The notes beneath the pieces are model-generated. The model was not told where the DNA came from. It saw nothing but the letters and a program-made list of their open reading frames with translations, and searched no databases. From positions 10,313,501 to 10,377,500 of the forward strand of contig CP099848.1 of assembly GCA_030062745.1 (NCBI GenBank): a stretch of 64,000 nucleotides of DNA. Reading direction: 5' to 3'. The stretch is from Capitulum mitella. Taxonomy: Eukaryota; Arthropoda; Thecostraca; Pollicipedomorpha; Pollicipedidae. Below are positions 110-53,830 of the stretch, piece after piece. Numbering within the stretch: the first letter of the stretch is position 1; every line of letters starts with the position of its first letter. The position numbers and the translations under genes were made by a program.

Positions 110-299
110 GGCATCTTCTGGCACATCACGTTCGAGCTGCCGCTGTACGTGGGCGGGGTACGTGACGTCAGCGGCGTGCAGCTGCGGCTGGGCGTGATCG
201 GCGGCTTCCGCGGCTGCCTCCGGCTGCTGGAGCTCAACGGCAAGAGCGTGGACTTCCGGCCGGCGCCGACCGGCCACGTCCTCCGTGGCTGGGACATCG
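110..299 (+). CDS. LG-protein exon 1: C-terminal half of LG1
   Basis: Acceptor cctcag precedes 110 and donor gtgagt starts at 300. The exon enters in phase 0 and leaves with one extra base. The peptide has the LG hallmarks LYVGG, then GFRGCLRLLELNG about 20 residues on, with the single Cys expected near the end of an LG module. The exon encoding the first half of LG1 is outside the window. Confidence 0.85.
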
Positions 300-3200
300 G
301 TGAGTCCGGGTCAGAACAGTGAGCCATGCCGGGGCGTCGGAGGGTCAACGCTGGGTCTGGCCGGGATATCGGTGAGTATGGGTTAGCGCTGGGTCCGATC
401 TGGGACATCGAATAGTACGGGTCGGCTCCGGGACAGACCGGGATATGGGTGGGTCGGAGGTGGGAGAACGATGGGTCAGCACTGGTACGTGGATGAACCA
501 GAGATGGAATATCTGTTATAGGTCGGAGATTCAGTCAGTCAGTCAGCGGTCACCAGTGTGGCATAAAAGGGACAGCCGGGACTGAGACAGGGCCGGGAGG
601 GCGAGGGATGAGACAACAGTGGCTCAGTGCCGCGATGAATTGGCAGCTCAGTATTGTGAAATCCGTGGGTCAGAGCTGAGAAGGCGATGGTTCAGTGCTT
701 GGACAGCGATGGATTGGGGAGAGGACATCGCTGAGTCTGTTCTGTGCTTGTGGTTAGTCTGCACTTTTGTTATCGATCACCACTTATCCCGTGCTGACAT
801 GTGTTACAGTATTCGAATAATTCATTTGACTGATGGGTCTGCAGAAGTCCCTGTCTGTGTGGGATGTTTGTTACATGCTGGGCAAGAACGTCGGCCAATG
901 GCCGTCAGTGGAGGAATGCTCGTTCAATGGACTGATGTGTTTGCGAACGTGCCTGTCTGTGTAGGTAATCTGCGGAGCACGGACGTCAGCATTTCCCGCC
1001 GGTGAAGAAATGCTCGTTCCCTTTCCATAGTCGCCCTCCTCCAGTTGGCAGAAGCCTCCACGCACCATTCCCACCTCATCCCGTCCTCCGGACGCGCCAT
1101 CGGCGCCGCCGCCGCCGATCGCCTCTCGCCGCCGGCGGCCGGCGGGCCATTTCCTCCCGGTCACACGCGCCAAGCTGTCGCCGCGCCCGAAATAGCGACG
1201 CGATGAGCGATTGGTTCGAGTCGGGACGGGGCGGCGCGGCGGACCGGCCCCCTCCAGGCACGGCGGACGGCCGGGCCGAGTGATCGCCGGCGATATTGGG
1301 TGCGGCCAGCGGCGGCCGAGCGGCCCAGATCGAACCGCCGCGCTGCCGGACCAGTGGTAATACTATACGGACAGTCACAGCCGTGTTAAAATATGCTTTT
1401 GTTCTAAAGGCGTCGTTGGTAAAGCGCGCAAATGTCTACGAAAAGGAGGCGAAGTATGATTTAAGCACGTCGGAATCAGTATGCTTCAGAAATGTCCAAA
1501 GTTCCTGACGTGGTAGCGAGCAAGGCTGGGTAAGAGCGCGCTCTGCTGTAAAGAGCAGAAAACAATCATATTAAGCGGCCCGATCCGACTTGGTTCTGGT
1601 CGGGTCAGGCAGTCACTTAGAAAAAAAGAAAAGAAAACGGTGAAAACATGGGTTTTGTTCAGTTTTTCGATGTTATCGTCTATAGTACAATATATGTTCT
1701 TAAGTCATTTGCAAAAGAGCTCATATAGATCGTGCGGTCCCAACTTGTCGGAAAGCTACAGAATTACGGGTACGGCCATACTGGGGCCCAGTTGTTACGA
1801 TACCGTTTTCCCTAAAAGGCAAAACAGCGACATCTCGAAAGTAACAGTAATCAATAACAACTTTGCCGCGCAGCACCGCAAAGGCAAGTTGGACAGCGAG
1901 ACAACAATATAAACTAACTTAAGTCATAACAAGTTCGGGCGAAGCTACATGCCACTTATTCACTGCCAGAGGCCTTCATCCAAGGCAATCAAACTCCGCA
2001 CACTTCCGGATTGTAACTTTCAGGATGTCGAAACTTCCCGGCCAACTGCGATACGAAAACTTCGAGAAGGGTGCATTGCGTCGTAACGAAAGCAAATTAG
2101 CAAACTGCCCCGAAACATTTCTAATTAAATAGGACTTTGTAACACTTGAATGCCAGGACATCTCTTTTTAGGCTAAGCTTCTCTTTAAGACATCATTGTT
2201 TTTGTTCGCTCCAAGAACTTATTTTTGTTTAGCCATGTTATAATTTTCTGTGCAAAACGTACGCCCGTTTTTCACGCTTGGCTGCTTTTGCTCAGGACTA
2301 AATCCATTTCAGACAACGTGAAACGTGTAACACGGTATTACACCACTGTGGTGGTTTCGCTCGAGCCGGCTGAGTACGTCTCTCATTAACCCGACCCCGA
2401 CCGAGAGACGGGGTGCTGACAGCCCCCCCCCCGCGGGGTTTTTCAAAGATTGCGAGAGAACAAACAAACGCAGCGCTGCCATCTGGTTGGGCGTAAGGAG
2501 CTTTCTGCGATCATTTCTGCGATATATGTTTTCTAGCCGTGCCATGCCTATTTGTTGCAGCCACAGGACCTGGCTTAATATTTCTCCGGCCTCTAAATTA
2601 TTCTGCATAGTTGCTGTTCCCCAGGCTTTGGCAGTTTCCCTCCAGAACACGCTTTTTATGTGGATTTCTATTTCCTTGTCGTCCGAACAGCACTCAAATA
2701 CTGACGTGCCTCCTTGCATAGACAGCACATGTGTGACGGCCGCTCGTCACTTGGCTTGTGGCTGCTCTAAGTAACGTTTTACCCATGCCACTTCCAAAAC
2801 TTTTTGCAGTCGTTGCAATGTCGGGTACTTTAAGCCCTCCATTTTTATGCTGTTTTTTTTTAGAAGAGCCCTTTTGATCTTGCCCCGCTTATTCCCCTCA
2901 TATAAAGCGGAATAATATTTTTCGATACTTCCAATGATCGTCATTTGGCAAAGTACCACTGACCTCCAACCACTGACCTGAGGTCAGGTCATCAGTTACT
3001 GGCAAGAGCAAAAATGCACCACCCTTAAAATTGGCAACACGAACGAATGGAAAATGGCAGAAGTGGCATTCAGTTATTAATGGTGCCAATAAGTTAAAAA
3101 ACACATAGCTTAAAAATAATTGGGTTTTCCCTAAAAAAACTCCGCCCATTGTATATGCTGGTAAGCAGTGACTTTTTCGCAAATTTAACATGGAAAACCA

Positions 3201-6200
3201 TAACACAAACCCCCAGTATGACGAAAAACAAACTGTTAATACCTATTTCACCAAAATAAAGGAACGGCAAGATAAGTGACCGTCGATTTTACCTCGCCTT
3301 CAGCGCCAGCGCGCGTCGCTCTGGCGCAGAAGATATCGCTGCATCTTTAACTCGGCGTTCCCGCGTAAATATTCAGCAAATCAGAGAAATTAGGCGTGTG
3401 TCGGTATCTATGGATGTTTATCGATCTGTTGCCCATGGGCACCTTTACCTGGTCTTTATAAGTCACAGCTCTTGAGATCCGGAGGCGTTTTTCTAGTATA
3501 TAAAATCAGCTATGACAAGACAGATGTAGAGCGTAATTAGCTTACATATTTTCCAAAAGCAAAAAATGATACGAGTTTCCAACACTACTTGTCACGTGCT
3601 TTTCAAAAGTGTGCTCATTTTTATTGCACAACAAATCTTTCGCGACGGGGTCGTCAACAGTCTGCTTCCGACTGTCAGACACAGCTTAACCCACGCAGTG
3701 GAAGGGGGTTTCGCACTAATGCTTACTGGAAGTGGGGAGTCTAAAAGTGCCCCCTTCCGATCTCAAAAACGGAAAAAGCTAGAGACATGAAACTTCGTGG
3801 AAAGCATTGAAACTATAACAATTTACACTATGTACAATTTTCATGACCCTAGGATGATATCTTCAAGGTCAAATGGGATGGAAAAGGTCAACCTTGGTCA
3901 CTTTCTTGGCCCGTACAAGCCATTCCGTACAACTTTTCGAACGAAACGGGAAAATGGTGTTCGTTTGGCTGTTGAAACGTGGAATGCGACAACTTCCATT
4001 CATTTGGCATCTTGACTGAGGATTTTGGGTCGAGGTCATGCCAGGTCATTGACCTATGGCGTCATTTTTTCATCTTTTGCAGATCAGATTTCGAACAACA
4101 CCGGATAGTTTGAGAGTAAATCAGGACGCAACGTGTATCTTTTGGCGTATTTGCAGTGAAGGTAGCCAACATCGGTACGTTTGGTCACTTCCAGAGTCTA
4201 CGTTTATGTATGTATATGTAAATATGTATGTCTACGTGAGTATCAATGTGCAAACGTGTTTTAATTGGGTCTCTGAATAAATATTTCATACAAATCGACA
4301 TATTCCAAAGCAAATCTGAACCAGATCACAAAAAAGTTGCCCCTGGTCTTTGATGACCTTCACCTGAAATGACTCTGGCATATATGTATGCTTATCCATA
4401 TGCGCAAACGTGTTTTTTAATTAGGGTCTTTGAATTCATATTTCATACAAATCGGCATGTCGCAGAACAAATCTGGACCAGGTCGCAAGACATTTGACCT
4501 TGACCTTTAATGACCCTGACCTTCACTGACCTTGGTATATGTAAGCGTATCAGTGTTCGCACACATGTTTTTATCAGGGCCTCTGAATGCATATTTCATA
4601 CATACTGCCATGTTGCAAAGCAAATCTGGATCACGTCGCAAGCTGTTCGGCCTTAACTTTAGATGATCTTGACCCTTAATGACCCCGGCTATGGTCTTAG
4701 TACATCCATTACTTATGCCCGAATGACATCGCCTGACTGTGTTCGCATGGCAGTCTTAAGTAGAACGCTGGTTCTTTGACAAAGCTACCACTTGTCAGCG
4801 ACAACCGTCGCTTTCGTCATGTTTGCCTGACTTCAAATGCTTGAAACTTCAAAAAGTTCCGGCCGATTTCCGATTTTTCTGCGTCATTCGACGAGTTATT
4901 CAATTGTCATAAATGCCACAAAGTAGCAGCAACCAGCTCCGATCCGTTCTCGAGATATTCAAGAAAAACAGGTGGGGGGCAGAAAAAGATCCCCTTCCAG
5001 CGCGCGTGTTAAGGTATTAACCCGCGCACGACAGTCGGTCGGTTACGACCACGCCCGACTGGGGGGGGGGCAGTTGGCCGCCCCCGCTAACTCACGAACG
5101 GTTAGTCGCACGATAAAAATAAGCACGCCATTGGAAAGCTTGTGACGAGTAGAGCTCAAAACTGGTCTCATGTTTTGGTTTTAGATAATATGTAAGCAAT
5201 TTACGTCCTATATATGTTTTCTCATAGCCGACTGCATGAGACCGAGAAACGGCCTGAATCTCAAGGGCTGTGACTAATAACGCAGAGGTAAAGGCATCAG
5301 CGAACAAGTAAAGGTCCGCGAATGCCGATACACATCTAAATTCTCGGATCTGTTCAATATCCCGTCCCAGACTGGGGGGGAGTTGACTGCCCCCCCCCCT
5401 GAGGCTTTTCTGGGATTGTGAGAGAACCAGCAAGCACAGGGTCACGAAACTTTTTGTGCCTTTTGCTCCATCAATTTAACATCTCGTGTCAAAATTTTGA
5501 CCTCAGATCACGTCAGGTGCCTAACCTAAGTCAGGTCAAACAGACCTACGTCAAAAAAAGTTTAGCGCCCTGTGACGTTTTCGCAAAACAAGATATCTCA
5601 GTAATACTTTCATGGATTAGTGATCGTGATAAATGCAACAAATCTGCTTTCTCAGATTTTTCGGAATTTTCCGGGTCATTGATCTAAGGCCAAGCCCATT
5701 TTTAAGACATATTGCCGTTTTTTCGGAAATTGACGGAATATTCCATAACGTTTTTAGTGTGGAGTGAAACAGACATCTAGTTACGGTCATTGGGCAAAGT
5801 ATCAGTGACTTCCAGCCATTGAGGTCAGGTCACGAATAACTATAGTGGGCCAAAATGTACCACGGTCAAAATCGACGATGAATTATTCAGAATGGGTAGA
5901 AAATGGCAGAACTAGCTTGCACAGACGTAATTAATACTAGGAACCTCAAAAAGTTTGAAAATGTAGCATATTTTGCAAAATAAACAGGCTCTCGCGAATA
6001 AAGCTCCGCCAATTTTGTAGATTGGTAACTAATCAATTTTTCCAAAATTTAAGCATGAGAAACCATCACAACAACCACAAAGATCAATAAAATTGGCATA
6101 GATCGTCTTTTTAAAAGGAACGCCAAAATTAGTTCCCGTCAATTTGGTACCGCACTGACAACTGGTGGGAGAATTACGGTGTCTTTAACTCAACGTTTCG

Positions 6201-9200
6201 GCGTACATATTGCAGAAATCTGGGGAAATTAGACGTGCATCGGCATCCGCGGACCTTTACTTGTGCGCTGGTGCCTTTACCTATGCGTTATTAGCCACAG
6301 CCCTTGAGATTCAGGCCATTTCTCGGTCTCATGCAGTCGGCTATGAGAAAAAAATATATAGGGCGTAAATTGGCTTACATATTATATGAAACTAAAAATG
6401 GGACCAGTTTGGAGCTCTACTCGTCACAGGCGTTCCAACGGTATGCTTATTTTTTTCGTACGACCAACCGTTCGTGAGTTAGAGGGGGCAGTCAACTGCC
6501 CCCCCCCATGTCGCCCCATATGTTCGAGACGGACCGACGGTCATGCGCGGGATATATACGCGGAAACGTTGAGTTAAAGACACGGCAACTTTCGCGCCGG
6601 CTGTCGGCGTGCGCCGCAGCCGTACACAGTAAGAAATTAACGGAAACTAGTTTTAGCGTTCCTTTATTTTCGCGAAAAAAGCCTATCCATGTAAATGCTA
6701 TTGATTTTAGTGGCTTTTGTGATGGTTTTCCATGCTTAAATTTTGGAAAAATTAATTAAATACCAATCTATACAGTTGGCGCAGCTTTATTCGCGATAGC
6801 CCGTTTATTTCCCAAATATACAATTTTTCAAACGTTTTAAGCTTCCTGGTATTAATAACGTCTGTGCAAGCCAGTTCTGTCATTTTCTACCCATTCTGAG
6901 TAATCCATCGCTGATTTTGACGGTGGTACATGTTGGCTCACAACAGTTATTCGTTACCTGACCTCACTCAGGTCAATGGCTGGAAGTCATTGATACTTTG
7001 CCCAATGACCGTAACTAGATGTCTGCTTCACTCCACACTAAAAATGTTATGAAATATTCCGTCAATTTCCGAAAAAACGACGTCATGCGTTAAAAATGGG
7101 CTTGATCTTAGACCAATGACCCGGAAAATTCCGAAAAATCTGACATAGCAGATTTGTTGCATCTATCGAGGTCACTATTACCTGGAACTATTATTGTGAT
7201 ATCTTGTTTTCCAAAAAACTTACAGGGCGCTAAACTTTTTTGGACATAGGTCCGTTTGACCTGACCTAGGCCAAGCACTTTACCTGACCTGAGGTCAAAA
7301 CGTTGACACAAATTGTAAAAATGATCAAACAAAAGGTACACGAAGTTTCATGGCTTTGTGTTTGTTTGTTCTCTCGCAGTCCCAGAAAAACCTCAGGGGG
7401 CGCGGTCAACTGCCCCTCCCCCAGTCGGGGCGGGTTAAGGTTCACATATGGAATGGTTTGGCTCAAACTCCAATCCTATTGCTCGGGTGACGAGAGCAAA
7501 GACATATCACATATATTTGCAAGGGCCTAGACACGATATTTGATCTGCGGGAAATTTCGGAATGACGGAAAGATTCTGTTACGCTTTCAAAGCGGATGAA
7601 AGGGTGCACCAAGATGTTGCCTACATCACAATGTCCTTCAGTGCTGCAGCCTGCTTTTGACCACCCTGGTGTAGGTGTGCATTCGTATTTCATTGGAAAG
7701 CTAACCCTAGGTAACATTTCCTTCGCATCTGTCTGCTGACTTCGTTTCAGTTCTTTCCGTTCTCGGAGCACACGACAGGCGCCACGGCCTCGCTGTGGAA
7801 ATCGAATCGGGCCACCGGCTAATCTGTTAGAGCCGGCCTGCGACCTTGGCGACACCGCTAAGGTTTCCGCGACGTTTTCGACGCGGCGCTGGTCGCCGCG
7901 ACGTCCCGTGCTTTAGATAAGCGTGGCGCGAAGGCCAGCGTCCTAAGGGCGTGACGCTGGCAGCCTTAAAATGACTTACTGGTATTCTCCAGGGCTTATC
8001 CGTTCCATTAGCGGTCGCTGTGAGAGCGCTTATCCCGGTAAAGGTCACATAAGCTTTGTCGTGGGTCATACTGTATTGCTCCCAGTGGACGAACAAGGCT
8101 GCTTGCAAGCTGGTCACGTACTGGCCAGTACTGCGCCGACCTTTCACTGCACCTTGTGCACAGCCAGGCTGGTTTCACTGTGAGCCACTAGCGTTCTCGC
8201 GTATTGGTACCACGGTGAAAAGCTGTCTGTGCTGTGATGTGCCAGGATGTGCCACCAAGCAGTCCGAGGTACTTACCTTCTGACAATCCCTCTGATGAAG
8301 AAGACATAGACCCTTGCGGGTGGCGTTTGGCGAACTTAGCGGCGACCTATGCCTCAGATGACGCCGCTGGCCTAAGACGTGCCTCCATGCGAGCTGAGCA
8401 GTGACGCATAAGCTTACCACTAAAGGATCCCGCGGACGCAGAGAGCTTCCTCCAGACGAGCGCAGTGATAACCTGCATCATCTCTAAACGGGGACCTTTA
8501 CCACCAGTAGATCGCACTGAACTTGTTCACACCCCTGACGAACACAGCGATGACCCTCAGGGGACGCCGTTGACCTCGGTCATGCCCTCAGGCGAGTGCA
8601 GCGGTGGCGTGCACTCTCGGACGACCCTCTGACCTTGGACGTGCCCTCAGGCGAGTGCAGCGGTGACCTGTGCAGCCGGACACCGTGCGACCACGGCGGC
8701 AAGTGCGTGACGGCGCCGGACGGTTCGGCCACCTGCCTGTGTCCTCTCGGCTTCCTCGGCGAGCTCTGCGAAAAACCAGTCGACCTGCAGGTGAGGGTCG
8801 ACCCGGCCGCGCCGGCGGACTGTGCCGTCAGGCCCGCCGCCAGGACAGCGGGGGGGGGGGCACCCTCTGCAAGAAGAGGGGGTCTCATCACCCGGCTGCC
8901 GAGTTGGGGCGGGCGTCGAGCTAGGAGAGCGATTGGTCTGGTGCGATAAGGGACGCTGGGTGGATGTTGCAGATCTGATTTTATGAAGCCAGAAATGATA
9001 AGATAATGGAAATGAAGGGGATGTGAGTCGTTTTTTTCCTGGAAATACTACCAACATTGGACGCAAGGAGACGTGATGGGGCTATTTTCCTCACGATTTT
9101 GATTCGGTGGCTGTGATCACGGTTTTGAACACTCACAGAAAGCAATATATGGCAAAGCCCGATGTCCACAGTGCCGTCTTAAGAGCTGTGGTGTAAAACG

Positions 9201-15200: not shown

Positions 15201-18200
15201 ACCCGATCTGAGGTTAAAACTTTGACACAAGGTGTAAAAGTGATGAAGCAAAAGGTACACAAAGTTTCGTGACTCTGTGTTTGTTGGTTCTCTCGCAATC
15301 CCAGAAAAACCTCAGGGGGCCAGTCAGATGCCCCCCCCAGTCGGGGGCGCGTTAAAGCCCTGTTTCTGCATAACGCGCGAGCGGCCAAGGCAAAGAGGCA
15401 CACCCAATTCGGATTTTCGGTGGCGCGGGGCGGGCGGACGGCGGCGCGTGCCTCGCAGGAGACTGACTCTAACAGGAGCGCTGATCATGTGGCGAGCAGA
15501 CGGCCGCGAGTATTACTGCGCAGCGGACGGCCATTCGTCGGCACAGAATGCCAGTCTTTACTCGTACTGAAGCGCGGCTGGCGCTTCGGCGATTCGTCGC
15601 AATAAAAATTCGTAAGAACCCGGAACGAAACGACAGTGTTGCAAGAATGTTCTTCTTTGGTGAATCAGACGTCAGTGATGAAAAGCGGAATGACATACAT
15701 TGTAGTCCAAAGAAGCTGAAAAACTCCAGTGGCACTGCTGTATCGTGAGGCCTGATTTCTAATTTTTGGTTTCTGAGTGCTCTGAATAGAACAAATCAGT
15801 GCGACGCTCACTCGATACGAGGCAAATTGCGAGAAAGAACTCATAAAATGTGATTTCGGAACTGCACGCTGATTAACCGTGAAACAAGGACAGAAAGAAT
15901 GGAAACAAGCGGTAATCAAGGTTTATTTCCCAAATAGATTCCGCCACCTTCTATATCTCTGCCATCCGCCACGCCAGCTGCCGCAGTCCTCCACCGAGCC
16001 CATCCGACGATCCCCCCCCCCCCGCCCGGCAGCCCTTCCCTGCTAAGTGCTTCCCAGCAGGTGGCGGCTCCGTCCCGGCGGCGACGTGGGCCGTAAGTGG
16101 CGAGCGGCGGCGCCCGTCGGTCGTTTGTCCCGCGGCCCGACGCCTCGTCAGGCGAGACAAAGCGCCTCGAACCGCGACCGGCCGGCGACGGCAGGCGGCC
16201 GACTCAATGGCGGCCCACCATAGATCGGAGAGGACACTGAGAGAGACCTGGCCACCAGCAAATCAGAGGACAGAGGGGGACTGGGGGAGATCTGGCCACC
16301 AGCAGATCAGAGGACACTGAGGGAGATCTGGCCACCAGCAAATCAGAGGACAGTGAGGGAGATCTGGTCACCAGCAAATCAGAGGACACTGAGGGAGATC
16401 TAGCCATCGGCAGATGAGAGGACACTGAGGGAGATCTGGCCACCAGCAGATCAGAGGACAGAGAGAGACTGAGGGAGATCTGGCAAGCGGCAGATCAGAG
16501 AACACTGGAGGGGATTTGGCCACCAGCAGATCGGAGGGTACTGAGGGAGATCTGGCCAGCGGGAAATGAGAGGACAGCTTGAAACTACGATAGATCCGGC
16601 CACTAGCAGATCAGAGGACAGAGGAACACTGAGGGAGATCTTGCCAGCGGCGGATCAGATGACACATGGAGAGAGGACCATCTTACCGGTGATTGATCAC
16701 AGGATATTGAACACGGGGGGTCAGTCACCTCGCGGGCAGAGATTCTGCTGGTTATCGGGCAACTCGCACAGAGGAGGCTAGCAGACCTGTGACTCATCGA
16801 AATTTTGCCTGGTAAAACATTCATGGCGCCGACGCAAAAGGATGTGTGCTCGTTTGTCGTCTTACGGTTTGCGATTTCCGAGCGATATTTCGACATCCCA
16901 ACTTTGACGCTTGGTAACTGCAACCTCATTTGGCGTGGGATACCGAAAGAACTTCAAATTCGTGAAGAAATAAACAAAACAGAACGCACAGGGGAATGCG
17001 TGGTTCAGACGGCTAATCAGCGAACCACACGCAGGGGGTCACCTCATCAGGTCAAAGATGATTTGGTCCCGATGACAGAGGTATGACTGGGTTAGACAGG
17101 CAGCGGCTAACAGCTAGGTGATGTTAGGAGGGGGATATGGAAGCTCGCAGTCAAGAAGAAAAGTCGCCTTACGGGTGGAATGGGTCGCATTTAACCGGAT
17201 TGCGAAATGCTCCTGGTGATGAATGCGGGATTTACGAACGACTAATGGGTCGCGACGAACATATTTTTCGCTCGAACTAGCTGCGAGAAACGCACGGGGG
17301 TCGCGTCTCAGTCAGCTCAGAGTCCGCAGGCCGCGCGATCAGCCAGGCAGCATCGGCCCTGTGTCTCTGCTGACAAATCGAGGCCTTAAATGGAGTCAGG
17401 GTCACGATAAATTCTGCTCAGCCGCCGTCGGCGATCTTCACCGTCCCTTGAGGTCCGGACAGAGAACACCATCAGTTGTACCACCGGATTGAATGCCAAT
17501 TGAGAAGGGGATGTAGGATGGTGGCCAGGCACGCCCCTTGACTTTTGGTCACATTCAGTGTAGGCTTACGACGTTAAATGGGACATGCTCAAAGGAATAT
17601 TCGTTTTTTATGCTCTCTATGCCTGGGTTACAGTCTACCGACAAAGAATTAGTATGGAAGTCCGCGATCAGGACTGATAAACACATGTCACTCTCTTCTT
17701 TCTCCGTATCAGAAGCGCCGGAAGCGACGTCTGCATGTCTCGCAGCCGCCTGCGCCCGGGACACTGGACGTCGGTCTTTTAACCCCTGTTGCTGGTGAGA
17801 TCTGCCGCGTAGAGACGCAGAATTTCTCATTTCATACGATGTAGGTCTCGTAAGGGTGAACCAGTAGCTACGATGATTCTTTCAGCCTATTCTTTGGTAA
17901 ACGCGCGTCGTTTCGGCGCATCCGTTGGTAAGCGAAAGTGGCCATGTCGGTGGTCATCCTGACTTTTCTGAACAACGAAAAGAGCAGACGGAAACATCCA
18001 TGCTGATGACAGATGACCGCCAGTGCTGGAATTCCATTCGCGACAGATAAGTTCAGCAGCTCCCTCCAGCCAGTTCACTGACGAGGAACGCGGGCGGAAA
18101 GAGCGGTCCAGAGGTGTCCAGGACTATCAGTACGCCGCGACAGCGTAAGTTGTCCCCCATCCATTGCAGCCTTACTACAGCGGGGCGCAGCGGCCTCTCA

Positions 18201-31467: not shown

Positions 31468-31471
31468 TTAA

Positions 31472-40384: not shown

Positions 40385-43300
40385 GTAAGGTGCTTGTTTC
40401 TTGTTTATTGTGTTGTTGAAAATTGGCTTATAATAAGTGAACAAAAAGTACATCATTATTGCAGATGGTTCATGGGCTTTACCAGAGCATGATCATCAAG
40501 TCTGTTTCATTTTGTATGACTCCTTGTACATTTTTGCCCACAGGTAATGCTTAGTGGAATGCATATAGGTTTTTTGCAATTGTGTTAGTCACACATAACT
40601 TGCCTTGACATGACTGGTGTCCAGGGTTGAACATTTGGTTTTCATTCTTGGTGCCAATATAATTTTTGTTTTGGAGTACAAAATTCTACAAACAGTAATA
40701 CTGGTTTAAGCCGGCATTGTTGGTTTAAGCCAGTCATGACATACTGCCTGCTTCTAACTGAATGGAGATAGAGTCATTTGCTTTTGGAGTTAGACTTTTG
40801 TGAACATAGTTATAATGTAGCTTTTTGATGGAGGCACAAGATCAGGTTTTTCAAGTATAAGATGTTTTTGGAGGCATATTTTTTGATGTTCTGCAACACA
40901 AAACACATCTTTTTGAAACCTTGCTGGTGTCTCCAGCATCTGATGTGTGTCACACTGTTTGTTGATATATGTCTTTCAGAAATGCTAATGTCAGCCCAGC
41001 TGAAGCATGAGGTCATATGCCTGGAATTTTCATGGGAGGAACATGTTTTGGTGGAAGGTGTGTAGGTTCATTGTTACTCCCCTGACTCTCTGTGATGTTT
41101 GTGGGTTTGTTAGGACATCGTGACAGACTGTCTTGAGTACATCATTCATTCCGAAGTCCCCGGAAACTGCTAAATCCCGCGGGCACCACTGACCGCAAAA
41201 ACAGAAATGAATGCCCTCCACTTTCCCCAGGGTGACGATGACATTGCGACAGTGCCTCCGTCAACGGCGGCGGCCACGGCGCGGCCGGACACCGACGCGG
41301 CGTTCTCAGCGCACTCCGACGCTGAGGCGGCGGTCTCGCCGCAGCAGCTGCAGGCCACGTTTCAAGCGCTGCGCCGACTGTTTGCGCAATGTCAGACGGT
41401 GGACGAACTGCTGGAGACGGCCCAGCGCCGCCAGCTGACCGCTACTGAGTCGCTAGTCTGGCTGACTTCCGTGGCGCACATGGCCATGGACCAGGGCGTG
41501 CCGGCCACCACCGTCACATCGCACCTCTGGTCAGTGACGGGCGACGTCATCCCTGGACAGTGATGGAGGGCACCCCTGATCAGACCACCAGACACGACGA
41601 CGTTGGAAACAGAATTCTCTGGTTGTTGCGAGGAAAGGTGCATTTGTAGTGTCGTCCCGCGCTGGAAACCACATGCATCCCATACAAGAGATGTTTGCCT
41701 CTTCTCACTTGGTCAATTTGGTGGATATTTGTATCTGTGCTCACCGTTTTGGACCTCACGCGGCCTTTCGCCGTCTGTAGATACGCCAGAAGCGTGTCGT
41801 GAATATTCACAGCTGAACTACGTAATGTTCTGTGTCCGAATCTGGGCCTTTTTCGGGTGCCACCTAATACTCGCCAACGGGCGGATCGCGCCGAATCGGC
41901 CGCTGAAGAGATTGCTGCCGTCGCTGTATCCTGTCTGCCCGCCGGCGCCAGTGTCCGCCGGCGGGGTCAGCCGCCGACGCTCCTGGTAGCCGGTTCTCGG
42001 AGCCGTCTGACACCCCGCCGTGACCCCCAGCTACCGAGCCGCGGCCGAGCAGGTGAACGGTCGGACGGAAAACATGGCGCCGCACAAGTTGCTGGCGCCG
42101 GCGCGCGCTCTGGTCGACCTGGGCGTGCCGCTGGCCGACCCGCTGCTGGCCTCGCTCATCAACGACCTGGTCTGGAACCTGCGCAAAATGACCATGAAGC
42201 AGCTGGTGCAGGTAGGCGGGCGGCCTGCGGCCGGCCGGCGGCCGAGGCGCTTTCTCAGGCGGCTGACGCTACGTATTGAGTTTGACATACGTCTGCCTCT
42301 GGTGTTGTGCCTTTGTACTTAAACGATATGCTTTGGTATTTTTCCTCTCCAGATTAGGAGCAGCAGAGGAGGACTTCACCATAACACGCCTCCGCGGCAT
42401 AAAGATAATAGATATAAGTGCGATTCATGAACTAGTTGCTCATGATAACTTATGTTATTGATTAGATTAATTGTTTGTGAAATTAATATATAACTTTTGT
42501 TAATAGATGCATTGTTTGGTGTGACTCACCGAATATTTGTTCTAAAAAACATGTTTACCACGGTAATGCGATAATTCTCCATTGAAATCACGAAGCATTT
42601 CCACACACGTGCGCACCTGCCGCGGACCACCACGCCACCAGAGAGGTAAACGGTTGCCGGCCGCTCTGCCGGCCCGCTGCCGCTCCGCCGTCACCAGGCA
42701 GACGCCTTCTGAAGTGCGCCCTCCCCTGGTTCGCAGAGCTTCTGTCTGGCGCGCCGGTTTCCTGACGACGGACAGGTGAAGCAGCTACTAGCGCTGAGCC
42801 AGGAGATGATCCAGCGCCGCTGGGTGGAGCTCACAACGCCGGAAGAGATCCTGCCCATCCTGAAGCACAGGTAAGGGCTGCATGCGTAGCCCCTTTACGT
42901 GTGTTGTGAGCTCACTGCCGATTCCTTCTTCGTTTTGTTTCAAGAAGCTATTCAACAGACTGACATTAGTGCGCTTTAATTCAGTTTCTATCGCCGGCAG
43001 TGTATCAGAGCCGAAATAAGACCGATGCTCTCATAGTGCTACAGATCACTGGTGCTCCCCAGATTGTTCGTTTCTCTGTTCTGCCTCTAGAGGTACTGGT
43101 TTTCTCGGCACGAATAACTTAACGAGTTTACGTCTACGCCATGCCTGCGGCCCACCCCAAGGAACGTCGCGCATCACAGCCCTATCACCGTCACGCGAAA
43201 TGGACTGTTGCCGGTCGCGTCGCCGTCCCTCCGCCGCACCTCGCCCTCGCCGGCCCGGCCGGCCGGGGTGACGTGACGCCGACTGACCGGGCGGCGGCGC

Positions 43301-46300
43301 CGCGCAGCGCTTCGTTCTCGGCCGAGTTTCTGCGCCGACTGGATGACCGGGCGCTGGACGTGGCCGGCCAGGTGTCGGCCAGCCACGCGTCGCGGCTGCT
43401 GGCGCAGCTGGCCGCCCTCGGCCGCCGGCCGCTGCCGCTGCTGCGCGCGCTCTGCTTCCACTCGGCCCGGCAGCCGGAGCCAGTCTCCGTCAAGGACGCC
43501 GTCCGCTGTCTGTTCGCCATGCAGAAGCTCAACTTCCCCGACCAGGTGACGGCACTGCGGCCAGGCCGGGGGGGGGGGGAGGGGAGACGTGGCAGGTGCC
43601 AGCACGGTGTGGGGGCGTGGCTGTTATGTGATCTGGTGCCGACTCTGCCAAAATCCGAGATCGGCTGTAACTTTAAAACGGACATGGGCAGTGGAACAAC
43701 TAACGACGCAGGGCACTTATCTGGCGTCGACTCTGTCGAAATATGAGATCAACTATAACTTTAAAATGCACATGGCAATTTGGAAAACTGAAGGGCAGCT
43801 GGACAACCGTGCTTCGGGGGCCAGAGGCTCCTGAAAACGGCACTATCGCAGGTCAGTCGTTGCTCGGCAATTCTGTGCGTGTTCGGGCCGTGGCTAGCCG
43901 GGGCGTGTTTGTCGGCCGCTCAGACGCCGCCTGTCGCTGCCGGCCGACAGATGCTGCTGGAGAAGCTCGGCAGGGACCTGGTGACCCAGACGCCGGCCGT
44001 CGAGCGGCCCGGCGTGCTCAGCTCGGCCCTGACCGCCGCCGGCCTCCTGCGCTGGCGCCACGTCGGTCAGTGACCCCCCCCCCCTCCCCGGCGGCGAGAC
44101 GTTCGGCTGACGCGGGGGTGTAGGCGCTTCGCCGAGCCGCGGACGGTCAGGGTGAAGGATCGCTGCGGCCGGTGGCGCCCCGTGGCGTGACTGATGGAAA
44201 GAAGTGGTCGAGCCGCGGACTGCGTCATTCGCCGGTCCGCCGGCCATATCTCGTTAAGAAATCCAGAACGTACGGTGGACCTATTTGTGACTCAGCTCCC
44301 TATTGACAAAACAAAAACTCCTGGTGAAAGTTTTCATGTCATGGCTCTGACTTGATTCATTCCCTCATGGATTGCCGTTTTGTATTGTTGGTCACGGATT
44401 TTAGTAACTGCTGTGTTTGGTACGTCGATGAACCATAAGAGATAGCTGTCATTAGCCCTCATATCCACCTTTCCGCTCCCAAAAGTTCGAACATCGATTA
44501 TAAACCTTGAAACTGGCTCCGATGACTAATATACTTGGGGAACTTCCCCAAGTATATTATATTCCCTATATTGCCCCTGCTATTTTGAGGTCCTTTGCTT
44601 TTCATGTACGTCAAGCTTACAACCTGTATGCATATCCAAGGTCGTCTCCCAACATTTCATAAATTCGTGTTGGGATTCAGGCGGCTTGCATTGCAGTGCA
44701 GCCAGCCCGGTTGCGTGTTGCGGACCCCGAAACTTCCGGCGCGGTTGCAGAGTTTCTGGAGGCGGCCGCCCAATGGCACGAGAAGCACGCGGCGACGCTA
44801 CGGCCCCAGGACGCCGTCTCGCTGATCATCACCCTGGCCACGGTCAACTACTGTCCGGCGAACGCGGCCACCCTGCTCCCGGTACGTGCCGGTACGCCGC
44901 GGCGCCGCCGCTGGCTGGCGCTCCGTGTCTGCGATGACGGGAAGGGCTGAAGGCAGTGTGAGTCTGATCTCAGACAAGCAGACAAGTCAGATTGAGCGGC
45001 TTGGCCCGGCAGGGCCCGCTTGTGACGCTGTTATATCTCACCACGGACTAAAGGGGCTGTCCGTAAGTAATTTTAACACTCCGTGACGTTCAGTCAAGCC
45101 GAACCCCCACAACTGCATAATGCTCAGCCCCCTCCCCCCTCCCCCGCCGCCTTTCTTCTCTCTGTCCCAACCGTTTGCTTACCCTGCTTTTTTTAATGGC
45201 GCGTCACGTATTTTAGTGTACTTTCGTCGACGAACAGAAACTGGAATGATGAGGTATGTTAGAGATGAGTCCCTAACTTTTTTAGGCTAACAGTCTCTTT
45301 TTCATTGATCTACAGCGTTATGTATTGCTCTGCCTCCCTCCCCCCCCCCGTGCGCTTTATCATGCATTGACCAGACCCCATCACCCCCCAGCGTTACATA
45401 ATTTATGGACGACTCCAGAGAGGGGGTCGTCTGCTCGTACCGTAGAATGCAACAAGGTAAAATCGATGCAGAAAGCATCGTTTGCAAATATGGCTCAACA
45501 TTTGAAGAGAAACGCAGTATTGCTGGCTATCCATGCGCTCCAAATGCCTCTTGCTGGTTTGCAACAACTTGCGAGCTGACCTTTGCAATAGTCTGCCAGT
45601 TATCATTGGCGTTTGGACGCCTGACGTCAGCCTACACGGTGAAGTCATCTTCCCGTGACCAGCATGTCCTCATCATTGTGTACCTCACGTGGCCGTCGTG
45701 CCTTCACCTTTGTGTACCTTCCGTGATTGGCATGTACTCGCCACTGTGTAAATCTGGTGACTGACATGACCTCACTGCTGTGTACATCCCATGACCGGCA
45801 TGACCGCGCGTATGCGCCAATGTACGTAAGGGCAAATGGACGTATGCAAAGGTACGTATGGCTAATGTACGTTTGCGCAAATGTACGTAAGCGCAAATGT
45901 ACGTATGCGCGAAAATATGCATGCATTTATCACGTAAACGCAAAATACGCATACTCAAGAATACATAAGCAAGCATTCATAGAAATAACTTCTTATTTAC
46001 TGTAGCACTGGTACACAAATGATCAGCGGGGCTGACATCTATATTTTCTTCGAAGATTGATACAAAAGACCTTTCCTAACGTTGCATTATGTGATCAATT
46101 CTGTGTCTTCACGGAATGACAAATTGTGTGTCTTCATGGAATTTGCCATGGAATCCCGCGTACTTCCTGCGATTACATGTTCTCACGGCTAACAGTAAGT
46201 TTCTGCCCGACGAAATCGCAAACAATCCTTTGTATAATTGCCACCAATGTAAAGAATGTATCACCCTGTTTCTAACCATACTTTCCACTACTTGATTTTC

Positions 46301-49300
46301 TAAAAAATAAGAACAAAATCGTAACGATAACGTACCACTGAGTAATACCGTGCTGCAGTCCACAGGCGGAGAACAACATTATTCCGCGGCGGAAAATGTA
46401 GTACCGCCAAGGTTAAGGTTATTGACATCAAGGATGTGTAGACCCTGCCTACATCTTCAAGCGATTAATGACGTCATATATATATATGAAATTTTTTTCT
46501 GTTGCCACAAACTGAACTTGGAGTAACTGCTGTATTATTACGCCGATATATTATTGTATTAGATAATTATTGGGATATCTGATATCAGTATTATTACATT
46601 ATGACATTTAATACTCGTTAGATTACATTAGGTTGCTAGGTTGGGTTGTGCTGGGCTAGGTTAGATAAGGTTAGGTTAGGTTAGGTTAGGTTAGGCTAGG
46701 CTAGGCTAGGCTAGGCTAGGCTAGGTTAGGTTAGGTTAGGTTAGGTTAGGTTAGGTTACTATGTAAGGTTAGGGTAGATTTTTTATTTATTGTTTTATTT
46801 CACTTTGTAATATTTTCCAGTTTTGTTCCGTGATTTCTTTTTCAGATATTTTATTTCACTGCTTTTTATTTTTTTGTATTCTCAAAATTGCAACTTCAGC
46901 TTTCCACCTTTGTAATATTTTTACTTTTTTGTTATTATTGTTTATTACTATTATTATTATTATTATTTTATTATTATTATCATTATTATTATTGTTGTTG
47001 TTGTTATTACAACGTCTAACCTTTTATTTCAAAGATAATTTATATCGCATTAGTTATTTTCCCAACCTTTTTTATTACTCTTGATTGGACCTTGAGTCCG
47101 ACCGACGACCAATCAGCGTCGAGATCTCACGTAAACAAACTATTTAACGCAGAAACGTCAAAAATACCTACGCGAGCGTCTGGCGTTTAGCATACCAGTG
47201 ACGACACATTCTGTTTCGGGGGAAATAATGTGTGTTTCAGGTTTTTCGGACTGAAATCGTAAGTACTACTTATCAGTATTGCATTTGAAGCGCCATGCAA
47301 CCACTACTACGATTATTTTCCCTCAAAGTAAGCGCTCTGTCAAAATCTTACTGTTGACCGTTCTCACCACTGAGTACCTCCCGTGACCGACATGGGGTCA
47401 CCGTTGTTTACGCGCCTCCCATGCGCGCTTACCGCCTGTGCCGCGCTCGACAGGCTCTGCTGGAGCGGTGTCCGCGCGCCGAGCTGCCGTCACCGCTGGT
47501 CTGGCTGGACCTGGTCTGGTCGCTGGCCGTGCTGGGCCGCGCCTCGGCCGACCAGCTGCGCTCCGTGCTGGAGCCGGAGTTCTGCCGCCAGCTGGCCGCC
47601 CGGCAGCTGGCGCTCGGCGCCCGGCTCAAGCTGCTGAACCTGGCCGCCCTGGCGCGGCTACGGGACGGCCTGCAGGGTACGTACCGACCCCGGGGTCCAG
47701 AGTCGGGGTGCGTACCGACCCCGGGGTCCGGAGTCGGGGTGCGTACCGACCCCGGGGTCCAGAGTCGGGGTACGTGCCGACTCCAGAGTCCGGAGTCAGG
47801 GCACGTGCCGACTTATGAGTTCAGAGTCAGGGCACGCACCGCCCCCGGAGTCCAGTCAGGGTACGTGCCGACTGTGGAGTCCATAGTCAGGGTACGTACC
47901 GATACCGGAATCCAGAGGACGGAGTCAAGGGTGCCGGTGCCTGCTTCCAGAATCGCTGCAGTTGTTTCATGTGATTCGGAACGTAGTTTGTCTAGATCCA
48001 TGTCACGTACCTAGTTTTCCCTTTATCGACGCGAGGCCATCTTGTGGCTGCATCGTCTCAGTTGGCCTTAGTTCATCTGTTGCTATTGATTTGCTTTTTG
48101 CGAAATTTATTTCTGCATTATTGTTTTTTCCTTTATTTTTGTTTAAAGCCTTTGCTTCGCTTCAGGTGTAAGACACAGACGATACGTGGGTTTTGATATT
48201 TGTATGCGACTGACCATGGGTAGAACAGATTGGCAGACCGTATAAGCGCATTCGGACGTGGAGTATGACGTCCCTCCGCCATGCGTCGGGCGTTGAACAG
48301 CATGCCATATTTTTACCGTAATTTAATGTGTGGACAGTGCAACCTGGCATCTTTGTATCAGAGACTTCCCACCTCAGACTGACCGACCCCATTGCACCAT
48401 TTGTAGTAAAGTACCCTGTCCCAACTGGACACTCGGACAAACATTGTTTTGTAATTTACTGTTTTATTATGTATCGTCTGTTTTCATCGAATTTCAGCAA
48501 CACACTGCGATTGGCCCATTAAATGTTGCAAACTACTGCGGTCTGCATTCGGAGTGACTTGACCTGAGGTGACCTGACTGCCCTCAGGGCTGCAGTCGGC
48601 CGCCGAGCTGGGCGCGACCCTGACCTGACCTGACCTGGCATGACTTGCCCTCAGAGCCGCAGTCGGCCGCCGAGCTGGGCGTGTCGGGCGGCGGCGGCGA
48701 GGCGGCCGCACCGCCGCGGCCCCGCGAGGCCGAGCTGCTGCAGAAGGCCGTGCTCGAGGCGCTGGTGAACTTCCTGCCACCGCCTCGCTACCTGCGTGTC
48801 GGCGCGCCACCGGCCGCCGCCGCCGCCGTCGACGCCGAGTTCGTCGTCGGCGACGACGGCGCGCCGCTGCCGTGCGAGCCGTACGGAAGCGCGCTGCCGG
48901 GCTCGCCGGCGGCGCCGGCCGCCCGCCCGCCGCCCGGCGTGCACAGGTGAGCGCCCACCGACCGCGGCCGACTGCCTGCCAGGGCGGACGCGGGGCCTTC
49001 CTTCGCGGCGCGGAGCGGGCTCAGATGAGTCGGTCAGGAATGATCCTGCCGTGCTTCCGCCGTGGGCGAACGCCGCCCCGCGGGCTTTGGCGCGGGGAGT
49101 CGGGGATTGAACCTGGATGTTCTCTGTCTCTAGCAGGCATTTGACAACTGGCATTACGTCTGTTGTTCGCAGTGTGCCGTTGGGCCGCGGGGCGAGACAC
49201 TAACCAAGCGGTCGTGTTTTCCAGGGTGGCGCTATGCACGTGGACGTACCGGGACTTTACACTGGACTCGGTGGAGCTGACCGGCTACAACAAGATCGTG

Positions 49301-49432
49301 GTGGACTTGCTGGAGCTCAGTGGCTACAAGGTGCTCGAGGTGTCGCACGCGGAGTTCAAGCCCCAGGACAGTGTGGTGCAAAAGGTCAAGTTTCTGCGGC
49401 AAAAGATCCGCGATCTTGTGGCCGTGCGGTAG
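40281..49432 (+). CDS. FAST kinase domain-containing protein (FASTKD family, RAP domain)
   Basis: Ten coding exons join in phase: 40295-40384, 41231-41529, 42031-42211, 42776-42870, 43308-43545, 43951-44065, 44697-44881, 47454-47676, 48655-48946, 49225-49432; 641 residues. The N-terminus (MLSALRLVQRQSVLQRQWK) is basic, with no acidic residue in the first 30, as expected for mitochondrial import. Leu-rich helical FAST repeats fill about 100-470. An Ala/Gly/Pro-rich linker (about 476-570) follows, then a RAP domain at about 573-641 (RVALCTWTYRDFTLDSVELTGY). FASTKD proteins bind mitochondrial transcripts and govern their stability and processing; RAP resembles a PD-(D/E)XK nuclease fold. Length is close to FASTKD4/TBRG4 (about 630), but the subfamily is not assigned. 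The start is the first ATG in the exon opening after ctctgcag. A polyadenylation signal lies 400 bases past the stop. Confidence 0.88.
41231..41529 (+). CDS. FASTKD exon 2
   Basis: Acceptor ttccccag, donor gtcagt, phase 0 in and 2 out. GDDDIATVPPSTAAATARP is probably disordered; LQATFQALRRLFAQCQTVDELLETAQ begins the helical array. The alternative of reading on to the TGA at 41561 would end the protein before all FAST domains; the phase match to the next exon favours splicing. Confidence 0.75.
42031..42211 (+). CDS. FASTKD exon 3
   Basis: Acceptor tgacccccag, donor gtaggc, phase 2 in and 0 out. YRAAAEQVNGRTENMAP is followed by LVDLGVPLADPLLASLINDLVWNL and MTMKQLVQ, amphipathic helices typical of FASTKD repeats. 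Confidence 0.85.
42776..42870 (+). CDS. FASTKD exon 4
   Basis: Acceptor gacggacag, donor gtaagg, phase 0 in and 2 out. It encodes VKQLLALSQEMIQRRWVEL and TTPEEILPILKH, one helical repeat. Confidence 0.8.
43308..43545 (+). CDS. FASTKD exon 5
   Basis: Acceptor gccgcgcag, donor gtgacg, phase 2 in and 0 out. SFSAEFLRRLDDRAL, ASRLLAQLAALGRRPLPLLR and DAVRCLFAMQKLNFPD resemble the conserved LxALxxLxY-type repeats of the family. Confidence 0.85.
43627..43785 (+). repeat. Diverged 88-base tandem duplication in intron 5
   Basis: atctggtgccgactctgcca ... aactttaaaacggacatggg (from 43631) is repeated as atctggcgtcgactctgtcg ... aactttaaaatgcacatggc (from 43719). Confidence 0.75.
43951..44065 (+). CDS. 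FASTKD exon 6: start of FAST subdomain 1
   Basis: Acceptor ccggccgacag, donor gtcagt, phase 0 in and 1 out. MLLEKLGRDLVTQTPAVE followed by LTAAGLLRWRHVG fits the FAST_1 subdomain. Confidence 0.78.
44697..44881 (+). CDS. FASTKD exon 7: rest of FAST subdomain 1
   Basis: Acceptor gcattgcag, donor gtacgt, phase 1 in and 0 out. VAEFLEAAAQWHEKHAATL and DAVSLIITLATVNYCPANA match FAST-type helices around a Tyr-x-Pro turn. Confidence 0.8.
45813..45912. repeat. gcgcaaatgtacgta minisatellite
   Basis: Six or so imperfect units of about 16 bases (gcgcaaatgtacgtaag / ggcaaatggacgtatg). Confidence 0.8.
46618..46766. repeat. Interstitial TTAGG tract
   Basis: A run of ggttaggttaggttagg with a central block of (ctagg) variants and degenerate edges (ggttgctaggttgggttg). 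TTAGG is the canonical telomere repeat of most arthropods. Shorter traces occur at 34037 and 55075. Confidence 0.9.
47454..47676 (+). CDS. FASTKD exon 8: FAST subdomain 2
   Basis: Acceptor gctcgacag, donor gtacgt, phase 0 in and 1 out. SPLVWLDLVWSLAVLGRASADQL, LEPEFCRQL and ARLKLLNLAALARL are characteristic of FAST_2 (a conserved W-x-L...L-N motif). Confidence 0.87.
47677..47925 (+). repeat. 31-base minisatellite beginning at the exon 8 donor
   Basis: The donor ggtacgtaccgaccccgggg is the first unit; gtaccg/gtgccg recurs at 47681, 47712, 47743 and 47774, a strict 31-base step, then degenerates through about eight units. Early units retain donor-like g|gtgcgt or g|gtacgt. Confidence 0.85.
48580..48681 (+). 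repeat. Duplicated acceptor of FASTKD exon 9
   Basis: gccctcagggctgcagtcgg (48580-48599) and gccctcagagccgcagtcgg (48647-48666) match through the following ccgccgagctgggcg, 67 bases apart. Only the second acceptor keeps frame; the first would meet TGA at 48626-48628. Tgacctgacctg repeats fill the gap. Confidence 0.85.
48655..48946 (+). CDS. FASTKD exon 9: linker before RAP
   Basis: Acceptor gccctcag, donor gtgagc, phase 1 in and 2 out. After a low-complexity GGGGEAAAPPRPRE stretch it has LLQKAVLEALVNFLPPPRYL, a conserved pre-RAP element, then VDAEFVVGDDGAPLPCEP and an Ala/Pro-rich tail. Confidence 0.83.
49225..49432 (+). CDS. FASTKD exon 10: RAP domain and stop
   Basis: Acceptor gttttccag, phase 2 in, TAG at 49430-49432. 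It encodes the complete RAP core: VALCTWTYRDF, LTGYNKIVVDLLELSGYKVLEVS, AEFKPQDSVVQKVKFLRQKI. This is the strongest family signature in the gene. Confidence 0.92.
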
Positions 49433-49838: not shown

Positions 49839-49844
49839 AATAAA
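49839..49844 (+). terminator. Polyadenylation signal of the FASTKD gene
   Basis: AATAAA in ccgaaataaaaac, 407 bases after the stop; the nearest canonical hexamer seen downstream on this strand. Confidence 0.55.
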
Positions 49845-50742: not shown

Positions 50743-50796
<54 letters not shown>

Positions 50797-51691: not shown

Positions 51692-51766
51692 TCATTCGGA
51701 CTCCTCGGCCGACTCGGCCTTCTTCGGCGCCTTCTTAGGCGGACGTCCGCGGCCGCGGCCCGGCAC
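51692..51766 (-). CDS. HMGA-like exon 3: third AT-hook and acidic tail
   Basis: Acceptor gtgacgccag read on the minus strand, phase 0. It encodes VPGRGRGRPPKKAPKKAE then SAEESE and TGA at 51694-51692. The GRGRPPK core is a textbook AT-hook. Confidence 0.82.
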   Translation of the reverse strand: MPGRGRGRPPKKAPKKAESAEESE

Positions 51767-53830
51767 CTGGCGTCACAGGGGTGACAGGGTCACACGAGCC
51801 CGCTAGAGGGGTGACCAAGGCACATTGGTCCTTGGTCAATGTGTCTTGGTCAGTGACCAAGGCTCAATCGGCCTGAGGGGCAACCAGGTCACACGAGCTG
51901 GCCAGAGGGGTGACCCGGTCACACGAGCCGGCCAGATGGGTGAACGGGTCAGACGAGCCAGCTAGAGGGGTGACCCGGTCACACCAGCAGGCTAGATGGG
52001 TGACTCGTTCAGATGAGCCGTCCAGAGGCGTGACCCGGAAAGACGAGTCCCAGAGGGGCGACCTGGACAGACGAGTCGGCCAGAGAGGTGACTCGGTCAG
52101 ACGAGCCAGCCAGAGGGGTAACCTGAACAGACGACTTGGCCAGAGAGATGACTCGGTCAGATGAACCAGCCAGAGGGGTGACCCGGTCACACTAGTCGGC
52201 CAGAGGGGTGACCTGGTCACACCAGTCCAGGCCAGAGGGGTGACCGTTCACATCAGTCGGCCAAAGGGGTGACCTGAACAGACGACTCGGCCAGAGAGGT
52301 GACACGGTCAGATGAATCAGACAGAGGGGTCACCCGGTCACACCAGTCGGCCAGAGAGGTGACCCGGACAGACGAGTCGGCCAGAGGGGTGACCGTTCAC
52401 ACGGAACGCCGGAGGCGAGACGACCACATGGGCGGCCGTGCACTCGTGAAATACCGACCTACCCAGCAGCAACACTATAGGAACCATGCAACCCAGCATT
52501 CTGATACAATTCAATAAAGCACCATCTCACCACGAATTCACAATGTTTTAGATTAAGGCAAAAATGACCGATGAAAAACCAAACCATGAGACTCAGAATG
52601 CGAAACTCGAAATTCTGGCGAGCATGCTAATCTATTAACACATCCATTTTCCCTGCGCGAATTAGCTTCCAACGACCAACATCGCTGGAGAGGGAACAAA
52701 TTGACACAAAATCACCATTTCCAATGAGAGCAATTTGTCGGTTTCTTTCCAAATCGAAGAAAGAGACTGGTGTTTCGAAACCTGGCGAGGCGCAAGAGTA
52801 TTGTTTCACATTTCAAGCAAGAGAACAAAATGACTGCGACACAATAATGGCACAACGTGGCGTACGCACGACAAAGACGACCATGAAAACTAACTATAGA
52901 TGGTATACTGGAACATACAGCATGCATACAACACACATATTCAAACAGTCATGCACTCGAAATAAGAACGAGCTTGTTCATTTAATACAAGCTAATTCTA
53001 CTTTCAACCCTGCAACACGACCCTTGGAATTCCTTTTACAATGCACACTGTGACAGGCTACAACACACGCAGAATGGAAGCATTGTCCTTCCAGTGACGG
53101 AAAGACTTTCCAACCGGCAGGCGGCGAATGTTCCGTTTTCATGCGCTGCAAACGTCACAAACGGTTAGGCACACAACACGAAAAGAAAGGAACAGAAACG
53201 CCCATCAAACGTGACGTGGATCCTGACATCAGCTGCTGCTGACTACATCAACTGTTTGCAGGGGCCTGCTGGCAGCGTGGGCGCGACCGAAGCCGCGTAC
53301 CGACCTTCGGGGCCTTCTTGGCGGGTCCGCCGGCCTTGGGAGGCCGGCCCCGACCTCTCTTGACCGGGGCCGGCTGCTCGGCGGCCTCCTCCGCCTCGGC
53401 GTCGGCTACCTTACGCTTCTCGGCCACCTTGGCGGCCGGCTGACAACCACAGCACGGCGCTTAGCACCTTCTCAGACCAGGCACGTCATAACTGGAGGCC
53501 AACTTCACTGATCCAGCCAAAGGTTAATGTGGTCTGCCAATATACATCAAAGGTCTTTATCTTAATTACCAAGGTCGAACATCTATTTAAAAATATGCCT
53601 GACAGAGACGATAGTTCTTTGAAGGCAGCTGGCCCCAGATTTACTCTTTCTACCCATCTCTGCCTAGGTACCACTGCTATGATGCCACAGGCCTGTATAT
53701 TAAAAGTGAGCCTCAATCTGGAGCAAAGAAGAGGTGACACAGTGCATACCTTGTCCGACTTTGGTGGCTTCCCACGCCTTTTCTTCTCCACAGCATCACT
53801 GTTGTCCTGAACAGCAGTCTCTTCAGGCAT
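51692..53830 (-). CDS. HMGA-like AT-hook protein
   Basis: Coding exons on the minus strand are 53830-53750, 53439-53305 and 51766-51692, about 96 residues. The protein starts MPEETAVQDNSDAVEKKRR and has three AT-hook-like cores: RRGKPPK (about 18-24), KRGRGRPPK (27-35 of exon 2) and GRGRGRPPKK (exon 3). It ends with the acidic tail AESAEESE. Three hooks, small size and an acidic C-terminus are the hallmarks of HMGA (HMG-I/Y) proteins, which bind the minor groove of AT-rich DNA and remodel chromatin. The weak point is the exon 2 donor: the in-frame site is gtcggt, while the more canonical gtacgc four bases later would break the frame into exon 3. The first hook has Lys in place of the second Arg. 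Confidence 0.8.
51770..52415. repeat. 30-base minisatellite abutting the exon 3 acceptor
   Basis: About twenty units of ggtgacccggtcacacgagc with cggccagagg, period 30, start within a few bases of the acceptor and fill the start of the intron. Each unit holds an inverted ggtgac...gtcac pair. The periodic peptide frames in it are a repeat by-product. Confidence 0.9.
52416..53304. other. Rest of the HMGA-like intron 2
   Basis: AT-rich unique sequence. No further AT-hook exon was found on the minus strand, so the exon 2/exon 3 phase question is not resolved by an extra exon here. Confidence 0.45.
53305..53439 (-). CDS. HMGA-like exon 2: second AT-hook
   Basis: Acceptor gtggttgtcag, phase 0. 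PAAKVAEKRKVADAEAEEAA, then VKRGRGRPPKAGGPAKKAPK. The exon end is placed at 53305 (donor gtcggt) so that exon 3 stays in frame; the alternative at 53301 (donor gtacgc) would not. Confidence 0.75.
53750..53830 (-). CDS. HMGA-like exon 1: start and first AT-hook
   Basis: 81 bases, 27 codons, donor gtatgc. ATG directly follows ttctggcag, which may be an acceptor; an in-frame ATG 12 bases upstream (53842) would add MFWQ if there is no splice there. The hook reads KKRRGKPPK. Confidence 0.75.

Follow-up and report, generated by a model that had tools for sequence, protein, structure and literature searches.

Do tandem duplications settle preferentially on exon-intron junctions, and what becomes of a gene when they do? 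The question is raised by a 64,000-nucleotide stretch of the genome of Capitulum mitella (GenBank assembly GCA_030062745.1, contig CP099848.1, positions 10,313,501 to 10,377,500 of the forward strand; hereafter the window, numbered from its first letter), in which several splice sites are accompanied by copies of their own surroundings. A sequence-only reading had claimed that at least seven of about 20 internal junctions, in three unrelated genes, carry such copies. The seven named sites, three donors (299, 24766 and 47676) and four acceptors (8651, 25265, 48655 and 51766), do fall in three genes (genes 1, 2 and 3, described below), while the gene models of the window contain 40 junctions (18 donors and 22 acceptors) rather than about 20. 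The boundary copies are real for most of the named sites. We consider it fairly probable that the sites are mirage-like structures, after a term introduced for lancelet genes, that is, short tandem duplications that include or abut the exon-intron boundary, some of which are now minisatellites.

Tandem copies at exon-intron boundaries

Self-similarity at the junctions was scored by gapped self-alignment (+1/-1.5/-3), with GC-matched positions in 24 dinucleotide-shuffled copies of the window as the control (GC, guanine plus cytosine); the array counts of this stringent scan exclude matches whose internal period is 6 or shorter. At five of the 40 junctions, donors 299, 24766 and 47676 and acceptors 8651 and 48655, the self-match was reached in none of the shuffles (p printed as 0.0). 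Acceptors 25265 and 51766 scored 0 in the same shuffle-controlled scan, and the junctions that come next, 23709 with p 0.013 and 48946 with p 0.13, score no better than 40 tests would lead one to expect. A self-alignment scored +1/-1/-2 was dropped because shuffles of this GC-rich DNA also gave many matches.

In a probe control, the 24 exon and 24 intron bases of each junction were compared with the junction's own intron and with introns of other junctions more than 700 bp away. The own intron gave the best match for six of the 40 junctions, where about one is expected by rank: 299, 47676, 8651, 25265, 48655 and 53830. The last of these, which the sequence-only reading had not named, leads by a single base. 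With three other probe shapes the own intron was best in 6, 5 and 6 of 40, the marginal members varying. Arrays found by Tandem Repeats Finder (TRF) at default settings touch two of the seven named sites (47676 and 48655), while a third lies about 100 bp off (51766).

At the exon 1 donor of gene 1 (junction 299|300), a degenerate array with a unit of about 37 bp occupies 286-495 on the forward strand and includes the last 14 exon bases; the stringent scan covers 286-386, and the stretch to 495 appears in the lax scan only. Copies lie at +72 (30 of 48 matches) and +111 (27 of 48), the best cross-control being 26, and the 72-bp step is consistent with two such units. Degenerate copies of about 60-65 bp, including 14-17 exon bases, are found at the exon 2 acceptor of the same gene (8650|8651; 8353-8667, forward strand). 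They stand 59, 262 and 321 bp upstream and match at 38, 31 and 29 of 48 positions against a best control of 24; for a possible fourth copy, at 195, the 48-base probe does no better than the control and a shorter one exceeds it. The array that starts from the exon 6 donor (24766|24767; 24766-24997, forward strand) runs on the intron side only, and its 209-bp step corresponds to about four units of about 52 bp (autocorrelation peaks at 103, 157 and 209). At the exon 7 acceptor (25264|25265; 25173-25283, forward strand) there is a single weak 64-bp copy with 19 exon bases. It matches at 28 of 48 positions against a best control of 27, an intron-heavy probe scores below control, the stringent self-alignment scan did not pick it up, and no AG stands at the corresponding position.

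Gene 2 carries a 31-bp minisatellite of eight units at its exon 7 donor (47676|47677; 47673-47917, forward strand), which begins four bases inside the exon; TRF gives 80% matches, and the donor GT is present in six of the eight units, as read from the printed units. The 31-bp unit contains two perfect palindromes at 47676-47697, one of 10 bp on the donor site and another, 12 bp long, beside it. Human CBS has a 31-bp variable number tandem repeat, a minisatellite that, like 47673-47917, spans an exon-intron boundary. Over the exon 8 acceptor of gene 2 (48654|48655) lies a 67-bp tandem duplication (48555-48681, forward strand; 1.9 copies, 86% matches in TRF) that takes in 22-27 exon bases. In gene 3, on the reverse strand, a 30-bp minisatellite (17.6 copies, about 18 units) fills 51767-52421 and ends at the exon 3 acceptor (51767|51766); the stringent scan starts it at 51774, but the alignment of its last unit begins at the first intron base, 51767.

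Exon bases belong to the unit at five sites, with at least 14 at 299, 8651, 25265 and 48655 and about four at 47676. GT or AG is kept in many, not all, of the copies: the one at 371 has GTGAGT, and those at 8592 and 48588 have AG. The original count of seven is partly borne out, in that five sites beat the shuffles and the array at 51766 reaches its acceptor, whereas 25265 is weak. Among the unit lengths first proposed, 209 bp corresponds to about four, and 72 bp fits two, of the shorter units given above. The proposal of independent events agrees with our data, given units of different length and sequence and TRF match levels that vary between arrays (86%, 80% and 74%).

Reading frames, a proposed mode of intron growth and known counterparts

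Genes 1 and 2 are open when the outermost junctions are used. If splicing is moved to the cognate inner copy, the frame meets a stop at 371 (where the step is a multiple of three), 8592, 24975 and 48588 alike. At donor 47676 the inner copies behave differently from one another, the +31 copy shifting the frame without a stop, the +62 copy shifting it and meeting a stop, and the +93 copy staying in frame and open; at acceptor 8651 the frame remains open with the inner AGs at 8561 and 8597.

These structures could arise in a few steps. A segment over the junction would be duplicated through slippage or unequal exchange. If splicing then stays with the outermost copy, the 5'-most donor or the 3'-most acceptor, the messenger RNA (mRNA) would be unaltered and the extra copies would count as intron; a duplication over a junction whose outer site is used would therefore leave the transcript intact. 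The same duplication within an exon would usually be purged by selection. The intron would in this way grow inward from the junction, and its inner copies would decay, presumably under neutrality.

Hairpin-driven slippage was rejected as a general cause: although the 31-bp unit holds perfect palindromes, the seven junction units, folded as DNA, gave z values from -1.86 to +1.18, with -0.60, 0.48 and 1.45 for three other arrays and 0.15 and -1.85 for two plain stretches (12 sequences in all). For a branch-site module, the motif CTGAC showed no clear excess in any of four acceptor arrays (lowest p 0.09). TGACC does exceed expectation in three of the four (p 0.037, 0.0 and 0.0); it was not used as branch-site support, being almost equally frequent on the opposite strand of one of these three and in excess in two of six non-junction arrays as well.

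The sequence-only reading held that no standard description of such junction-centred duplication exists, which is not so: mirages have been named in lancelets, and a junction-spanning duplication is known in human CBS. Mirages are tandem repeats over exon-intron boundaries of the lancelet Adh3 and globin genes, present at both boundary types with regular splicing, and their units measure 10-72 bp in Adh3 and 150-160 bp in the globins (PMC3087553). A paper on PGBD5 adds that gene, with units of 60 and 108 bp, and troponin C, the repeats abutting or overlapping splice sites (PMC3902484). Lancelet mirages and the present sites have in common that units of variable length span or abut 5' or 3' splice sites in several unrelated genes, and that AG or GT is kept in many but not all copies. 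The units of lancelet BflGb6 share 81-100% identity, and its haplotypes carry different copy numbers (PMC3087553), whereas the units described here are mostly more decayed and come from one haplotype. The present case is probably a new occurrence of mirages, outside lancelets; among the titles and abstract openings listed in searches of a partial paper collection, none reported mirages outside lancelets or a genome-wide test for junction excess.

In the human CBS variant 844ins68, a 68-bp stretch of an intron-exon junction is duplicated, with one site favoured and the extra segment spliced out (PMC2630376). It comes close in anatomy and size to the 67-bp duplication seen in the DNA at 48655; 844ins68 is a polymorphism of humans that adds a single copy and is backed by mRNA data. 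Intron gain through tandem genomic duplication, in which duplicated AGGT sites supply the splice sites (reviewed in PMC3443670), makes a new intron out of exon DNA, whereas here pre-existing introns bear copies at their ends. In human segmental duplications, variable internal tandem repeats (units of about 30 bp in about four copies) lengthen exons and introns, some of them at exon-intron boundaries (PMC2812944). Units of about 30 bp occur among the present arrays too, while the human repeats were defined among recent paralogues and half of them lie in coding sequence (PMC2812944).

Array placement and competing explanations

A preference for junctions can be sought by asking how many arrays touch a junction or how many junctions are touched by arrays, and we think the former the better question. 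When arrays of the same lengths were placed at random at GC-matched positions, none being allowed to cover more than 35 exon bases, 0.99 were expected to touch a junction, against six of 20 non-coding arrays observed (p 8e-5). With introns only as background, six of 16 touch a junction where 1.61 are expected (p 0.0013). These tests leave out arrays that are at least half exonic (two of 22 at threshold 16). Over seven thresholds and two backgrounds (14 settings), between four and six arrays touch a junction against 0.6-1.6 expected, with p from 8e-5 to 0.0096. The junction preference is suggestive only, coming as it does from a single window that was picked after the pattern had been noticed there.

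Several results weigh against the mirage-like reading. Asked per junction (threshold 16), arrays come within 10 bp of six of the 40, where 4.6-5.1 are expected at GC-matched positions (p 0.31-0.39), a control that is partly filled by the same arrays; a circular shift gives 3.2 expected against the six observed (p 0.095). In default TRF output, 35 rows were merged by hand into 13 arrays, 12 of them non-coding, with microsatellite rows excluded, and at 10 bp two of the 12 touch a junction against 0.63 expected (p 0.12; four of 12 at 110 bp, p 0.045). Relaxed TRF gives five of 59 at 10 bp against 2.5 expected (p 0.09), three of the five being at named sites and two at junctions not named earlier. 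The arrays at 24766 and 51766 abut their junctions with no clear exon part, and the copy at 25265 is close to noise. Nor do stops guard every site, 47676 (+93 and +31) and 8651 (8561 and 8597) being exceptions. The earlier proposal of one junction-centred process is suggestive only, favoured by array placement but not by per-junction coverage or by TRF at 10 bp.

The seven named sites are confined to four of the 18 complete introns in the window, and three of these have arrays at both ends (299/8651, 24766/25265 and 47676/48655). If three donors and four acceptors are dealt at random among 18 introns, three pairs have p 0.005; without the weak 25265 there are two pairs (p 0.056), and the five stringent sites alone also give two (p 0.02). 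This pairing, spotted after the fact, hints at something acting on the whole intron, for example local instability. One unit common to both ends was rejected for the three paired introns, whose scores (13.0, 9.0 and 11.0) each lie under the best cross score. In a comparison of the two ends of all complete introns, 17 of 18 showed no excess likeness; those of the intron 53305/51766 score 20.5, the best cross score being 14.0, but what is alike there is AT-hook coding sequence in two exons of gene 3 (see below).

One rival is ordinary turnover of GC-rich minisatellites, in which introns beside GC-rich exons are themselves GC-rich, the arrays that get as far as the exon edge halt there, junctions are not preferred at all and the sequence-only reading picked out the arrays at edges. 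We hold this to be possible, somewhat short of an even chance. It accommodates the per-junction and circular-shift results, the two TRF-based tests and the strong arrays that lie away from junctions (4240-4689, 16215-16672 and 45651-45963), whereas random GC-matched placement of the arrays yields far fewer touching a junction than are observed, at every setting, and exon bases belong to the unit at four or five sites. A bias of detection, which we regard as rather unlikely, would need no hot spot either: the exon or splice-site copy is held by selection and only its partner decays, so that the pair stays recognisable for longer. Such a bias is expected from neutral decay, and several arrays are old and degenerate (299 and 8651); by our own estimate, however, it yields about a two-fold excess at most, against the three- to seven-fold excess of the placement test, and it leaves 24766 and 51766, with little or no exon part, unexplained.

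The inner splice-site copies might instead be in use and kept by selection, tuning splicing as decoys or alternatives, or giving rise to alternative or unproductive transcripts. Retention of GT in six of the eight units of 47673-47917, the open in-frame donor at +93 and the GTGAGT at 371 would suit such a role, but the cognate inner copies at 371, 8592, 24975 and 48588 end in stops, GT or AG is often missing from the decayed copies, and lancelet mirages are reported to produce no aberrant mRNAs (PMC3087553, PMC3902484); we judge this use very unlikely. An assembly artefact, with false tandem copies produced by collapsed or mis-joined reads or haplotypes, is scarcely credible. Near-gene repeats are error-prone, and a draft genome is reported to have had one lancelet mirage wrongly assembled (PMC3087553), yet the present copies diverge by at least 14% and are not the same from site to site, unlike a false duplication of identical reads.

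Beyond the mirage-like reading of the individual sites lies the wider proposition that junctions are true hot spots of tandem duplication in this lineage, with introns growing inward, often from both ends (three of four introns), and lancelet mirages being one case of a wider animal process. We think this unlikely as matters stand. Were arrays that end on junctions in excess genome-wide, they would constitute a recognisable mode of intron growth in which the mRNA is protected via the outer splice site, the lancelet mirage would become a more general feature, and intron lengthening could be measured in assemblies. The array density and the pairing at both intron ends deserve a genome-wide count. 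The main value of the junction copies is as a possible record of intron growth, and they carry a warning for annotation, as introns contain near-copies of exon edges.

Gene models and other elements of the window

Four gene models were built in the window, which is animal nuclear DNA. Junctions picked by eye were afterwards checked against the reading frame for genes 1 and 2, and the models of genes 3 and 4 have fewer checks behind them. Gene 1 (110-28656, forward strand) encodes an EGF/laminin-G protein in eight exons, counted from the first in the window, and gene 2 (41231-49432, forward strand) a FAST-kinase-like protein in nine exons, whose true start may lie further upstream. Each forms one open frame, of 506 and 607 codons respectively (stop included), with a GC content at third codon positions of 0.91 and 0.90, and a start codon is absent from both models. 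Deep in a 13.5-kb intron of gene 1, a GC-rich 36-bp minisatellite occupies 16215-16672, remote from every modelled junction, and so runs counter to junction placement. A query of 174 residues from gene 2 found no relatives in one viral contig collection, and Rfam gave nothing at gathering scores.

Gene 3 (51692-53830, reverse strand) encodes a small protein in three exons, AT-hook-like by eye only and without a Pfam match. Within it (51692-53439, reverse strand), an AT-hook motif encoded both where exon 2 ends and where exon 3 starts makes these two stretches alike, and the likeness ends exactly at the donor; it may reflect an old exon repeat or a duplication-born intron. Gene 4 (61520 onward, forward strand) is the start of an ankyrin-repeat gene with a sub-threshold ion-channel match. 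In its large ankyrin exon (62157-62719) the reading frame switches between two overlapping open frames, which may be due to an assembly slip, a polymorphism or an unseen intron.

Two further elements were noted. A broken retrotransposon remnant, presumably Ty3-like, covers 58410-60590 on the reverse strand, with the RNase H domain of a reverse transcriptase at 59062-59883. An interstitial array of the TTAGG type, which fits an arthropod and makes a lancelet host improbable, is located at 46657-46758 and has about 20 pentamers with TAGGC variants and no TTAGGG.

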